Origin: Iodidimonas sp. SYSU 1G8
GTDB taxonomy: Bacteria; Pseudomonadota; Alphaproteobacteria; SMXS01
DNA: 64,000 nt
Direction: 5' to 3'
Assembly (NCBI RefSeq): GCF_039655775.1
Contig: NZ_JBBYXJ010000002.1
Coordinates: 1,302,001 to 1,366,000, forward strand
Shown: in pieces, positions 57,059 through 62,106 of the stretch
Layout: each line of letters begins with the position of its first letter
Numbering within the stretch: position 1 is the first letter of the stretch
Position numbers and translations under genes: made by a program
The notes under the pieces: generated by a model
Seen by the model: only the letters and a program-made list of their open reading frames with translations
What the model was told of the DNA's origin: nothing
The model's database searches: none

Positions 57059-58429
57059 ATGGTTATGGTAGCGGATGTCCTCCCTCCGAATGCCTCGCCG
57101 CTAATCGTGCGCCTGGACGCCACAAGGCGCTCGCGGCGCATCCGGGTCCTGAGCGGGCGATGGTTCCATCGCCTGCTGTTCATCGTCGGCGGTGTCGCGG
57201 TCGGCGGTGTCGCCGTTCTGATGGCGATCTGGGGCGACGTGGCCAACGAGGCCTTTCACGGCCTGGTCGAGCGCTGGCGGTTCGCGCCATTGCTGGTGAC
57301 GCCTGTCGGCTTTGCCGTGGCGGTCTGGCTGACGCGCCGGTTCTTTCGCAATGCTCAGGGCAGCGGCATTCCCCAGGCGATCGCCGCGCGCCAGCTGAAG
57401 GACCAGGAGCAGCGCGGGGCGCTGGTCTCGCTTCGCATCGCGGCGGCAAAGGTTGTGCTGACCCTGTTCGGGATGCTGTGCGGCGCCTCGATCGGACGCG
57501 AGGGGCCGACGGTCCAGGTCGGGGCGTCCATCATGTACGCCGCCGGCCGGCTGTCGCCGCGCCGGCAGGCCGGGCTGATTCTCGCGGGTTCGGCGGCCGG
57601 GGTGGCCGCCGCGTTCAACACACCGCTGGCCGGCGTGGTCTTCGCCATCGAGGAAATGAGCCGGTCCTTCGAGGTGCGCACCAGCGGCCTGATCATCGGC
57701 AGCATCATCGTTGCCGGCCTGACGTCGATTTTCTTCCTGGGTAACTACACCTATTTCGGCGTCACCCATGCGCGGCTCGCCGGGCCGGAAACCTGGCTCG
57801 CCGTGCCGGCCTGCGGTCTGGTCGGGGGCCTGTTGGGCGGCGGCTTCAGCCGGTTCATCGTCGCCATGGCGCGGGGCCTGCCAAACCGTGCTGGCGGATG
57901 GATCAGAAAGCGGCCGGTGGCTTTCGCGGCGCTGTGCGGCCTGCTGGTCGCGGTCTGCGGCATCGTCTCCGGTGGAGGCACCTACGGGACAGGTTACGAA
58001 CAGGTGCGGCACATGCTCGACGATGGCGCCGCGACGGCATGGTACTTCGCGCCGCTGAAACTCGCGGCGACGGCATTGTCGGCGGTCAGCGGCATACCCG
58101 GCGGAATCTTCTCGCCCTCGCTGGCGGTCGGCGCCGGCATCGGCGGCAATCTGGCGTGGTTTTTTTCCGCCGACGCGGGCGGCGCGGTGGTTCTGCTGGG
58201 CATGGTCGGCTATTTCGCCGGGGTGACCCAAGCGCCGATCACCTCGTTCGTCATCGTCATGGAAATGACCGACAATCACGACCTGCTGCTGCCGCTGATG
58301 GCGGCGGCTTTCGTGGCCCACGCGGCGTCGCGCCTGGTATGCAGGGAAGGCATTTATCACGCGCTGAGCCGCGGGTTTCTCACTGCGGCGCGGTCACCCG
58401 CCGGACAGGACAAGGAAGGGAAACAATGA
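57059..58429 (+). CDS. ClC-family chloride/proton antiporter
   Basis: A 456-residue ClC protein with about 18 helical segments. The selectivity-filter motifs are present as GSGIP, GREGP and GGIFSPSL. The gating glutamate in GREGP and the internal proton glutamate in FAIEEMSRSF are both kept, so it should be a Cl-/H+ exchanger rather than a channel. No C-terminal CBS domains. GGAGG lies nine bases before the ATG. It overlaps the next gene by four bases. Confidence 0.92.
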   Translation: MVMVADVLPPNASPLIVRLDATRRSRRIRVLSGRWFHRLLFIVGGVAVGGVAVLMAIWGDVANEAFHGLVERWRFAPLLVTPVGFAVAVWLTRRFFRNAQGSGIPQAIAARQLKDQEQRGALVSLRIAAAKVVLTLFGMLCGASIGREGPTVQVGASIMYAAGRLSPRRQAGLILAGSAAGVAAAFNTPLAGVVFAIEEMSRSFEVRTSGLIIGSIIVAGLTSIFFLGNYTYFGVTHARLAGPETWLAVPACGLVGGLLGGGFSRFIVAMARGLPNRAGGWIRKRPVAFAALCGLLVAVCGIVSGGGTYGTGYEQVRHMLDDGAATAWYFAPLKLAATALSAVSGIPGGIFSPSLAVGAGIGGNLAWFFSADAGGAVVLLGMVGYFAGVTQAPITSFVIVMEMTDNHDLLLPLMAAAFVAHAASRLVCREGIYHALSRGFLTAARSPAGQDKEGKQ

Positions 58430-59088
58430 GCCTTACAGTCGATCTCTACTGGTCGTTTCGAAGCCCCTATTCCTATCTGGCCACCCGGCGGCTGTTCGAG
58501 CTGCAGCGTGACCGGACCGTCGAGATCCGGTTTCGCCCCGTCTATCCGCTCGCGGTCCGGAGCGAGAATTTCTTCGCCACCGTCAATCCGAAATGGGTGA
58601 AGTACGTCCAGAAGGACGCGCCGCGTCTGGCGGAATATCTCGGGCTCCCGTTCCGCTGGCCCAAGCCCGATCCCATCGTGCAGGACATGGCGACGCTAAC
58701 GGTGGCCAAGGATCAGCCCTACATCCGTCGTCTGACCCGCATGGGGCAGGCGGCGGCCGATCTGGACCGGGGCATGGCTTTCGCTCACGAAGTCTCGTCC
58801 ATGCTGTGGAGCGGGACGCGCGGGTGGCACGAAGGGGATCATTTGCGCGATGCCGCGGCACGGGCTGGTCTCGACATCGACGTTCTGGACGCGGCGATAG
58901 AGGCCGATCCAGACGGGTTCGATGCCCGCATCGCGGCCAATCAGGACGCGCTTGAGGCCGCCGGCCATTGGGGTGTGCCGACCATGGTGTTCGATGGCGA
59001 AGCCTTCTTCGGCCAGGACCGGATCGATCTTCTCGAATGGCGGCTCATGCAGTCGGGGTTGGCCGACCGGGCATCAGCCGGCGCCTGA
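58426..59088 (+). CDS. DsbA-family/2-hydroxychromene-2-carboxylate isomerase-like protein
   Basis: A 220-residue thioredoxin-superfamily kappa-GST-like protein. The family start is [12 protein letters not shown], where serine replaces the DsbA cysteine, and [19 protein letters not shown] near the end carries the cis-proline. This fits glutathione-dependent isomerases such as 2-hydroxychromene-2-carboxylate isomerase. The ATG overlaps the ClC stop (ATGA). Its last 44 bases overlap the convergent DoxX gene. Confidence 0.85.
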
Positions 59089-59542
59089 TCAGATAATCCA
59101 GCGACAGTGCTCCGGGACCGCGAAACAGGATGAAGGCCAACGCCGCCGCCCAGCCCAGATGAGTCATCCAGGCTTCGGGATAGACGAAGATCTGGATCAC
59201 GGCGGTCATGCCCAGCAGCGCCGCGGCGCTGAGCCGGGACGCCAGGCCCATGAGCAGCAGGACGGGAAACAGATGCTCGGCATAGGTCGCCAGATGGGCC
59301 GCGACCTCGGACGGGATCAGCGGCAGGGCGTATTCGTATTCGAAGAGAACGTAGGTGCTGTCCTTGACGGTCAGTAGGCCCTCGACCTTCGTGCGGCCCG
59401 ACAGCAGAAACACCGTGGCGATGAAGAGACGGGCCGGTGTCGATACGACGGTGGCCAGGGAAACGCTGTCGAGATTGTCGAGCAGCCGTGCCGCAAGCCA
59501 GGTGAGTTGGCTGGGCCGCAGGGAGAAGGAAGGGGCGCTCAT
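59045..59542 (-). CDS. DoxX family membrane protein of the bufferin-type operon
   Basis: A 165-residue DoxX-fold membrane protein with about four helices (first near 38-57 in [18 protein letters not shown], others around 85-145). DoxX proteins are thought to act in quinone or thiol redox steps. It is the last gene of the bufA-bufB-bufC-doxX operon and overlaps bufC by four bases. The same position and family occur, from memory, in the gigPABT operon of Cupriavidus metallidurans. Its 3' end overlaps the DsbA-like gene by 44 bp on the other strand. Confidence 0.85.
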
Positions 59543-60306
59543 GGGGCTGGATCCGTCTGTGGCAGGGTGAAAACGCCGGATGAAATCAATTGGGCGAGGT
59601 CCATGGTCAGATCCTGTCCGCCCTCCTTGTCCGCGCTGACGGCGAGGGCGTCGCCGACCGAAAGACCGTCCCGGATGGCGGCGAGCAGGACAAAGGCGGC
59701 CTCGCTGAGGCGGAAAACCGTCACCTCGGCCTCGGGCCGCACGATCAGCAGGCGTTCGCCGCCCGCCGCCAGTTGCAAGGATGGCGGACTGTCGGCCAGG
59801 TTCGCCCGCCAGAGTTCAAGGACACGGTAGCGGGTCTCGAGCAGACGGCCTGACGCATGCAGCGCCACGCGCAGGGCGTCGCCGTCGCGGGCCGCCATTT
59901 CATGCAGCGCTAGGGCATCCAGCGCCGGCGTGTCGGCGGCGTGATAGGACTCCCGATGCAGGAATTCCAGCGCCGCGACGTCGGTTAGGTACGCAAGGGC
60001 GTGCGCGGGTTCGAAGTGCCGAAGGAAGCCCGGGAATTCACGGCCATAGCCGATCAGTGTCCCGCTGCGGCAGGGATGCGCGTCAACGAATTCCAGCGCG
60101 GCGAAGCGGAAAAAGTCGGCTCCGACAATCCGCTGGGTGGCCGGGAAGGTGTCGGCCAGCGCATCGACGAACCGCGCGTACATATTGTTGCGATAGATGG
60201 CAATGGACGCCTCGGCCGGAATGCCCGGTGTCAGCATGGGGGCGATGACGCCGCCATTTCGGATGGATGCGCTCAGGCGCGCCTGGACTTCAGCCAGCTC
60301 GTGCAT
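59539..60306 (-). CDS. bufC: DUF2063 (BufC-type) RiPP maturation partner
   Basis: A 255-residue DUF2063 protein. The N-terminal half (about 1-100: [41 protein letters not shown]) is the DUF2063 helical domain, once called DNA-binding, and the C-terminal half holds a RiPP-recognition-like region in this family. It is the obligate partner of the DUF692 iron enzyme in modifying the DUF2282 peptide. AAAGGG lies nine bases before the ATG. The start overlaps bufB by 17 bases and the stop overlaps doxX. Confidence 0.88.
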
Positions 60307-61171
60307 GGACCGGTACCCTTTGTATCATGGCCGCGGTCTGGGCCTCGGCCAGCAGGACCGGAAGCGGCGGCACGTCCGTATCCCATTCGATCAGCGTCGG
60401 CCGCCCTCCGATACGGTCGACGGTTTCGGCGTAGAGCGTCCAGACAGTGTCCGAGACGCGGCTGCCATGGTCGTCGATCAGAATCCGGCGACCGCCAGCT
60501 TCGATGGCGGTATGGCCCGCGAGATGAATCTCGCCGACCAAGGCGCCGGGAATGGACGCTAGCCAATGGCGCGGATCGAAGCCGTGATTGTGGGCCGAGA
60601 CGACCACGTTGTTGATGTCCAGCAGCAGCAGGCAGCCTGTCCTGCGCGCTAGTTCGACGAGGAATTCGGGCTCGGGAATGGTAGAATGGGCAAAGCGCAG
60701 ATAGGTCGAGGGGTTCTCCACCATGATCTGGCGTGACAGCGCGTCCTGCATTTTCGCGACATGACCGGCGACGACGCTCAGGCTCTCTTCGGTGTATGGC
60801 AGGGGCAGGAGATCGTGATGCGCGATGCCCGCATGCACCGACCAGGCGATATGTTCCGACACCAGCACCGGCGTGTAGGCGTCCACCAGATGCCGCCAGA
60901 GGGCGAGATGGTCACGGTCGAGCGGGTCGGCGCCGCCGAGCGACATGCCGACGCCGTGAAACGATAATGGATAATGCGCGGCGAGGGCCTTGAGATAGCG
61001 ATGGGGCGGTCCGCCTGCGCCCATGTAGTTTTCAGGGTGCACTTCCAGAAAAGGCAGCGCCGGCCGCGTCTCGAGCAGCGCCGCATAGTGCGAGGCCTTG
61101 AGTCCGATGCCGGCCGAAGCCGGCACCGGACCGGTGCCACAGGAAGCTGTGATGCCGTGGCGGCCGGGCAT
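60290..61171 (-). CDS. bufB: DUF692/MNIO (BufB-type) multinuclear iron oxidase
   Basis: A 293-residue DUF692 enzyme, the same superfamily as MbnB and TglH, using two or three irons to turn peptide cysteines into thiooxazole or related groups. TIM-barrel ligand residues are all visible: His72 (FHGVGMSLGG), Glu106 (VSEHIAWS), His118 (AHHDLLPLP), Glu152 (MVENPSTY), Asp185 (LLDINNVVVSAHNHG with His194), His216 (EIHLAGH), Asp234/His235 (IDDHGS) and Glu262 (LIEWDTDVP). The ATG is three bases after the bufA stop. Confidence 0.92.
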   Translation of the reverse strand: MPGRHGITASCGTGPVPASAGIGLKASHYAALLETRPALPFLEVHPENYMGAGGPPHRYLKALAAHYPLSFHGVGMSLGGADPLDRDHLALWRHLVDAYTPVLVSEHIAWSVHAGIAHHDLLPLPYTEESLSVVAGHVAKMQDALSRQIMVENPSTYLRFAHSTIPEPEFLVELARRTGCLLLLDINNVVVSAHNHGFDPRHWLASIPGALVGEIHLAGHTAIEAGGRRILIDDHGSRVSDTVWTLYAETVDRIGGRPTLIEWDTDVPPLPVLLAEAQTAAMIQRVPVHARAG

Positions 61172-61174
61172 GGA

Positions 61175-61474
61175 TCAGGCGCTGGGCACGCGGGCTTCGG
61201 ACGGCGCCAGGCTGCCCTTGCCGTGGGGCGTTTCGATGCCGGCGCAGGTGCCCTTGGGGACCAGCTTCCAGGCATTCGACTGATAGTCGATCTTGGAGGT
61301 TCCGGCGCAGCTGGTGCCTTCGCCTGCCTTGCAGTCGTTCTTGCCGGCCATGGAGACACCGTAGCATTTCTCCATGTCGGCCTTGTCGCCGGCCAGGGCC
61401 GAACCGGCGCTGCCGAACGAGACGGCCAGCGCGGCCGCGGCGAGGAGGGTCGAGGTCGTGATTTTGGCGGTCAT
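61175..61474 (-). CDS. bufA: DUF2282 (BufA-type bufferin) precursor, secreted copper-binding RiPP
   Basis: A 99-residue precursor of a DUF2282-type bufferin, a periplasmic copper-buffering peptide in related systems. A Sec signal ([19 protein letters not shown]) is cut near residue 28. The mature part has four cysteines, 37, 48, 56 and 77, in [26 protein letters not shown] and [10 protein letters not shown]; in this family inner cysteines are changed to thiooxazoles by the MNIO enzyme. First gene of the operon with an ECF-type promoter candidate 60-90 bp upstream. Metal and modified residues are inferred from the family. Confidence 0.9.
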
Positions 61475-61535
61475 GTGTGTATTTCCCTATGAGGTCTGGA
61501 CAGGACGTCGTCGGCTTGCGCGTCCGACAAACTTC

Positions 61536-61563
61536 ATTTCGGCGCGGGACCGGTTCGGGTTAC
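61536..61563 (-). promoter_or_regulatory. Candidate ECF-sigma promoter of the buf operon
   Basis: Minus-strand GTAACC (61558-61563), 16 bases, then CGAAAT (61536-61541). An AAC core in the -35 element is typical of ECF sigma factors, and as I recall Caulobacter SigF, an ECF factor controlling this gene family, uses such a site. The start would be near 61529, about 55 bases before bufA. It was found by eye and lies inside the divergent promoter region of the thiol peroxidase gene. Confidence 0.5.
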
Positions 61564-61593: not shown

Positions 61594-62106
61594 ATGCGGA
61601 TCATGCCAGGCCAGCCTGTACCGTCGCTGTCCCTGCCTCTGGCCGGCGGCGGCACGTTCACGCTGGGAGGGAATGCGCCCGCATCCTTCACCATGCTGGT
61701 GATCTATCGCGGCCTGCATTGTCCAATCTGCAAGGGCTATCTGAACACGTTGCAGGACAAGCTTGCTGATCTGGAGGCTTTGGGGATCGCCACGGTCGCG
61801 GTCAGCAGCGACGACCAGGACAGGGCCGAGCGCGCCAAGGCGGACTGGAAGCTGGACCGGCTGGATATCGCGTACGGCATGTCGATCGATGAGGGCCGTC
61901 GCTGGGGGCTCTACGTTTCCAAGGCGATTTCCGACAAGGAACCGCCATATTTTCTCGAGCCCGGGCTGTTTCTCGTCCAGCCTGACGGCACGCTCTATTG
62001 CGCATCGATCCAGACCATGCCGTTTACCCGCCCGGACCTGGACGGCATCATCGGCGCGGTCCGGTTTATAAACGATAAGGGGTATCCGGCACGGGGTGCG
62101 GCCTGA
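61594..62106 (+). CDS. AhpC/TSA-like thiol peroxidase-type protein
   Basis: A 170-residue thioredoxin-fold protein of the peroxiredoxin-like group. The active-site region is GLHCPICKGYLNTL with Cys43 and Cys46 in CPIC, a CxxC form that resembles resistive or reductase-like Prx relatives more than classical AhpC. GGGAG lies seven bases before the ATG. It is divergent from bufA with a 119-bp shared control region, so it may be part of the same metal or redox response. Confidence 0.83.
   Translation: MRIMPGQPVPSLSLPLAGGGTFTLGGNAPASFTMLVIYRGLHCPICKGYLNTLQDKLADLEALGIATVAVSSDDQDRAERAKADWKLDRLDIAYGMSIDEGRRWGLYVSKAISDKEPPYFLEPGLFLVQPDGTLYCASIQTMPFTRPDLDGIIGAVRFINDKGYPARGAA

Follow-up and report, generated by a model that had tools for sequence, protein, structure and literature searches.

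The core of a bufferin gene cluster consists of genes for a precursor peptide, an MNIO, a DUF2063 protein and a DoxX protein, and thousands of Buf1 and Buf2 precursors have been collected (PMC12452194, section 14). In Caulobacter crescentus the operon CC3254-CC3257, published in 2012, has the order DUF2282-DUF692-DUF2063-DoxX (PMC3511200). The sigma-F-binding sequence of that organism is GTAACC-N16-CGAA (PMC3511200) and its sigma-F regulon has as its units bufferin-type operons, msrPQ and sigF-nrsF (PMC8224329). The unit SMb20530-SMb20527 of Sinorhizobium meliloti, described as orthologous to CC3254-CC3257, likewise has four genes, with DUF692 and DUF2063 members, and is under ECF16 control (rpoE7-ecfR7; PMC6180224). 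In Cupriavidus metallidurans the gigPABT genes are induced by copper and gold, GigB containing DUF2063 and GigT being related to DoxX (PMC10304878); from the gene order, GigP would be the precursor and GigA the MNIO. In the oxazolin (hvfABCX) and fontiphorin systems of the captophorin class, an MNIO and its DUF2063/RRE partner generate 5-thiooxazoles, and the hvf operon also encodes the DoxX-like HvfX (PMC13097082, PMC13419390). Here we describe a locus of the same composition in a 64,000-nucleotide stretch of the Iodidimonas sp. SYSU 1G8 genome (the window). It is very probably a complete Buf1-type bufferin operon, of the captophorin class, under probable sigma-F control.

Gene content and conservation of the operon

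The features of the locus are as follows.

61538–61563, minus strand: sigma-F (ECF16-type) promoter, GTAACC-N16-CGAA; exact match to the Caulobacter sigma-F consensus
61175–61474, minus strand: bufA, bufferin precursor with DUF2282, 99 amino acids; assigned from PF10048, four cysteines and hydropathy
60290–61171, minus strand: bufB, MNIO (DUF692) maturase, 293 amino acids; assigned from PF05114, NF050167 and matches to sequences of solved structures
59539–60306, minus strand: bufC, DUF2063 partner protein with an RRE-like part, 255 amino acids; assigned from PF09836 and fold matches
59045–59542, minus strand: doxX, inner-membrane DoxX-family protein lacking cysteine, 165 amino acids; assigned from PF07681 and synteny

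The genes, their domains, order and conservation, like the promoter motif and its positions discussed below, are direct observations. The first-pass annotation of the window had described four overlapping or abutting genes on the minus strand, and all four are present at the positions and spacings it gave. Every frame is intact and begins with ATG, and the set runs from 61474 to 59045 with a gap of 3 nucleotides between bufA and bufB and overlaps of 17 nucleotides between bufB and bufC and 4 nucleotides between bufC and doxX. The GC content at third codon positions (GC3) of the four frames is 0.76-0.88. A single MNIO match and a single DUF2282 match are found in the 3.9 Mb genome.

All four Pfam families named by that annotation score above their cut-offs in a profile search, with DUF2282 in BufA (PF10048) at 89 bits (cut-off 22.4), MbnB_TglH_ChrH in BufB (PF05114) at 346 bits (cut-off 25), DUF2063 in BufC (PF09836) at 83.9 bits (cut-off 27.2) and DoxX in the DoxX protein (PF07681) at 54.4 bits (cut-off 23.6). 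The absence of a DUF2282 or DUF692 hit, which the annotation had named as refuting its reading, was therefore not observed. BufB also reaches the NCBIfam equivalog for the bufferin maturase, NF050167 MNIO_BufB, at 376.9 bits (cut-off 310). It falls short of the methanobactin model MbnB, attaining 60.5 of the 325 bits required, and its partner is a DUF2063 protein. The proposal that bufA, bufB and bufC form the bufferin set is supported, with the Buf1 type backed by domain content, gene order, cysteine pattern and the MNIO_BufB equivalog.

Conservation was assessed over 80 related loci. Searching genome contigs with BufB alone gave 562 confirmed relatives, of which the best 80 were used, and bufA, bufC and doxX were sought in these by tblastn of the window proteins. 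Matches to bufA occur in 79 of the loci, to bufC in all 80 and to doxX in 71; since the loci had been fetched with bufB alone, their recurrence shows an arrangement beyond chance. The four-base overlap of doxX with bufC is repeated in 38 of the 71 loci that contain doxX, and in 67 of the 71 the start of doxX falls within -20 to +30 nucleotides of the bufC stop. This tight spacing bears out the earlier suggestion, made from the overlap in the window, that doxX belongs to the unit.

BufA contains exactly four cysteines (Cys37, Cys48, Cys56 and Cys77), each conserved in 79 of the 80 rows of the alignment, the window included. Their spacing, 11-8-21, is shared with 22 of 79 relatives, while 11-7-21 is found in 51. 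The N-terminus is hydrophobic, with a hydropathy of up to 2.16 over residues 9-20, and ends in A26-L27-A28; judged by eye from the hydropathy and the A-L-A at 26-28, it appears to be of the Sec type, in agreement with the four-cysteine peptide bearing a signal sequence that had been predicted.

By sequence, BufB matches 3bww, with weaker matches to MbnB and to the DUF692 chain of TglHI. The activity of HvfB requires N175, D242 and H244 (PMC13419390), and in our reading of the alignment with 3bww the counterparts of these residues in BufB would lie within the pair N187-N188 and at D233 and H235, all of which are conserved in 81 of 81 BufB rows. This mapping of the iron ligands covers the three positions required in HvfB. 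The sequence of BufC gave a single match among solved structures, to an unrelated enzyme (E 0.066). The fold search did better: the BufC model (pLDDT 92.2), built from 41 sequences of which 40 came from the 80 loci, was closest to TglHI chain A (E 1.6e-7) and NGO1945 (E 1.2e-4), both of which have been described as MNIO partner proteins (PMC12452194).

The predicted sigma-F-type promoter

The promoter motif ends 63 nucleotides upstream of the bufA ATG. Its first base, 61563, is the coordinate at which the first-pass annotation had closed the operon, with no mention of the motif. In its exact form, with a spacing of 16 nucleotides, the motif occurs twice in the genome. The second site, at C2:712910-712935, is directly upstream of a gene for an ECF sigma factor followed by one for NrsF, a predicted sigF-nrsF operon (C2:712974-714297; Sigma70_r2 57.9 bits, r4_2 33.8 bits, NrsF 82 bits) about 650 kb from the bufferin operon on the same contig. 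A further site with one mismatch (CGTA for CGAA) ends 33 nucleotides before the ATG of msrP, with msrQ next (L096, G000:C2:1026216-1026683), both genes scoring above their NCBIfam cut-offs (MsrP 478 bits, cut-off 207; MsrQ 188.5 bits, cut-off 130). Because sites with up to one mismatch are common across the genome, the msrP site is weaker evidence. A gene for msrA is also present in this genome (C1:1120873). Judging from these positions, a stress sigma factor probably activates the operon, and the predicted regulon of bufferin operon, msrPQ and sigF-nrsF resembles that of Caulobacter.

The motif was also sought across species, in 78 of the 79 loci with bufA, one having been dropped for short upstream sequence. 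An exact copy lies within 300 nucleotides of bufA in 20 of the 78 loci, a number that rises to 26 when one mismatch is allowed, while for 200 letter-permuted motifs in the same loci the means were 0.015 and 0.575 and the maxima 2 and 8, respectively. When spacings of 12 to 20 were tested, there were 20 exact matches at 16, 2 at 15 and none elsewhere. Of the 26 loci with a match to sigF or nrsF, 15 carry the motif, compared with 5 of the 52 others (p = 1e-5, with relatedness not corrected), although other ECF factors may account for some of the sigF matches.

Among 41 related genomes, including that of the window, MNIO is found in 17 and NrsF in 10. Six of the 17 also have NrsF, and in 4 of these (G000, G001, G002 and G019) an exact motif lies before the MNIO, compared with 0 of the 11 that lack NrsF (p = 0.006), the pairing of motif and MNIO in the 17 genomes being judged by comparing coordinates; G001 and G002 appear to be the metagenome-assembled genomes (MAGs) behind loci L012 and L013 and are not independent of each other. 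As for the two exceptions that have both NrsF and MNIO, G013 carries a site with one mismatch upstream of bufA, and G028 has no site with under two mismatches in its two fetched loci.

Within the genus, MNIO is present in three of seven genomes, the window's included; of the four lacking it, two are 78% and 84% complete. In G003, G005 and G006 (100, 100 and 84% complete) no MNIO was detected, and nrsF and a sigF match are retained with two back-to-back exact sites upstream of sigF-nrsF (L153, G003:C43; L154, G005:C2; L155, G006:C19). G004 (78% complete) has neither MNIO nor an nrsF or sigF match. The paired sites of G005 sit between a unit of cytochrome b561, MsrP-like, sigF and nrsF genes and a secreted msrA-msrB pair. 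As three of the four congeners without a detected MNIO keep both the sites and sigF-nrsF, the bufferin operon seems to be an optional part of a regulon for methionine repair within the genus.

An identical 26-base sigma-F-type site, spacer included, is found in three species of the genus (G002:C24:48584-48609, G003:C14:59935-59960 and G004:C42:1507-1532).

Proposed mechanism and alternative explanations

By analogy with characterised relatives, from which the modification, export, disulfide, copper binding and induction are all taken, the operon may work as follows. Envelope stress, which in Caulobacter is caused by copper, would inactivate the membrane anti-sigma factor NrsF, and the freed sigma-F would read the promoter at 61563-61538 so that the four gene products are made together. 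BufC would hold the BufA precursor for BufB, a multi-iron oxidase, which would convert the central Cys48 and Cys56 to 5-thiooxazoles in the cytoplasm. The peptide would then be exported by Sec and the outer Cys37 and Cys77 would form a disulfide, in line with Buf1, where the central cysteines are modified and the outer ones joined by a disulfide (PMC12452194, section 14). Mature BufA would bind excess copper in the periplasm. DoxX, as an inner-membrane protein, would most likely act in a linked envelope step, perhaps coupled to quinone; this is the weakest step of the scheme. In Caulobacter copper induces the sigma-F regulon and disruption of sigF renders the cells copper-sensitive (PMC8224329).

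A number of observations weigh against a Buf1-type copper operon under sigma-F control. At the level of class, no NCBIfam model passes its cut-off for BufA, BufC or DoxX: the best for BufA is BufA2 with 19.4 of 60 bits, BufC falls below the HvfC cut-off (36.1 of 142 bits) and DoxX, while matching Pfam DoxX, falls below that of HvfX (NF050144; 44.4 of 80 bits); the assignment of these three proteins therefore rests on Pfam, gene order and fold. At the level of the promoter, 58 of the 78 related loci lack an exact site within 300 nucleotides of bufA, so that sigma-F control would be one option among several in the family. Over the whole genome neither exact sites (2, against 4 for the backwards pattern) nor sites with up to one mismatch (148 against 151) are enriched, and the same holds when spacings of 15-17 are allowed (14 against 17 for the control). 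As the counts are no higher than those of the backwards control, the genome-wide count was dropped as evidence of enrichment, and weight is placed instead on the positions of the sites and on the cross-species data. At the level of function, Caulobacter mutants in sigF and in the MNIO gene were no more sensitive to chromate or cadmium in the tests reported in PMC3511200, in those of PMC6180224 neither rpoE7 of S. meliloti nor its target showed induction by peroxide, cadmium or chromate, and gig alone is reported to have no effect on copper resistance in C. metallidurans (PMC8224329, citing earlier work).

It is possible, though unlikely, that the operon is directed mainly at a different soft metal, or at an oxidant (candidates being gold, cadmium, chromate and hypochlorite), and that copper is incidental. 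Chromate and cadmium also induce the Caulobacter regulon (PMC3511200), gig responds to gold as well as copper (PMC10304878) and in the present genome a sigma-F-type site also precedes the methionine sulfoxide repair genes msrPQ. However, loss of sigF sensitises Caulobacter to copper and not to chromate or cadmium (PMC8224329, PMC3511200), and 5-thiooxazole peptides bind copper (PMC13097082).

Two redox genes directly flank the operon. An AhpC/TSA-type gene (61594-62106, plus strand), which scores below the NCBIfam SelL-related cut-off, is divergent from bufA, and a DsbA-domain gene (58423-59088, plus strand) converges on doxX. A copy of the latter adjoins the operon in L012 (82% identical) and L013 (78%) too, so that close relatives share this chromosomal place. 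Despite their proximity, it is very improbable that these genes belong to the bufferin system, as both are on the strand opposite to the operon, an AhpC/TSA-type protein is matched in the loci of only 2 of the 80 relatives, in neither case upstream of bufA, and a DsbA-domain protein is matched in 2 of the 80, both being MAGs of the same genus. Some of the 80 loci end early at contig ends; on the synteny over the 80, the redox neighbours were rejected as parts of the operon.

For DoxX itself, eight residues (R38, E89, G99, R103, W131, G142, G144 and D149) are invariant over 47 aligned sequences, one from the window and 46 from its 71 relatives. Although DoxX was modelled with confidence (pLDDT 93.6), the model gave no Foldseek match at E <= 0.001 among solved structures. 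In a second structural comparison it resembled NACHO (Z 11.2, root-mean-square deviation 3.6 over 115 residues) and, at Z 9.0 and below, vitamin K carboxylase; as helical bundles may reach a Z of about 13 by common arrangement alone, according to a warning of the tool, the resemblance is only a lead. In the literature HvfX is termed uncharacterised (July 2026 preprint, PMC13419390), a quinol link has been proposed for GigT (PMC10304878) and protection from other stresses has been suggested as a role for DoxX (PMC12452194). We would put forward, as a speculative idea of low probability, that DoxX is a quinone-linked or assembly-type membrane partner of the bufferin pathway, through which the exported copper peptide, or the export step, would be linked to the quinone pool of respiration. 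Such a partner might be a bundle of helices similar to the assembly factor NACHO and to the membrane-spanning part of vitamin K-dependent carboxylase, with R38, E89, R103, W131 and D149 among its invariant residues. That DoxX is instead a membrane thiol-disulfide enzyme acting on the BufA cysteines is hardly credible. By analogy with Buf1, BufA needs a disulfide between its outer cysteines, and doxX nearly always adjoins bufC. However, the DoxX of the window contains no cysteine and neither do 31 of its 71 relatives, so that no cysteine position can be general in DoxX and direct disulfide exchange by it is unlikely; a direct thiol mechanism is all but ruled out here by the lack of cysteine, and DoxX as a dithiol enzyme was rejected on that ground.

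A decayed or silent remnant, for which the patchy presence of MNIO in a genus with two incomplete genomes among the four lacking it might speak, has next to no probability given four intact frames with the GC3 noted above, retained invariant residues and an intact promoter.

Comparison with described systems

The cluster type, gene order, modification, copper function in relatives and link to sigma-F are all already published, and for Caulobacter so is the connection of a copper-peptide operon with methionine sulfoxide repair under one sigma factor. The present operon provides a clean example, from an alphaproteobacterial relative group, of a predicted sigma-F regulon that can be read from the DNA. 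The precursors of the oxazolin and fontiphorin systems differ from BufA in having EGKCG repeats rather than a four-cysteine DUF2282 domain (PMC13097082, PMC13419390). The gigPABT genes lie beside their own rpoQ-rsqA pair (PMC10304878), and the S. meliloti unit is divergent from its sigma factor gene, with no inducer found in that study (PMC6180224).

Caulobacter shares with the present locus the order of the four genes and the promoter consensus, and places msrPQ and sigF-nrsF under the same sigma factor (PMC3511200, PMC8224329). By their locus numbers, its sigF (CC3253) and nrsF (CC3252) adjoin the operon, whereas here they are about 650 kb away, and the msrP site here carries one mismatch. 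Caulobacter also has a second operon, CC2907-CC2905; with its one MNIO match and one DUF2282 match, the genome described here is simpler for deletion tests.

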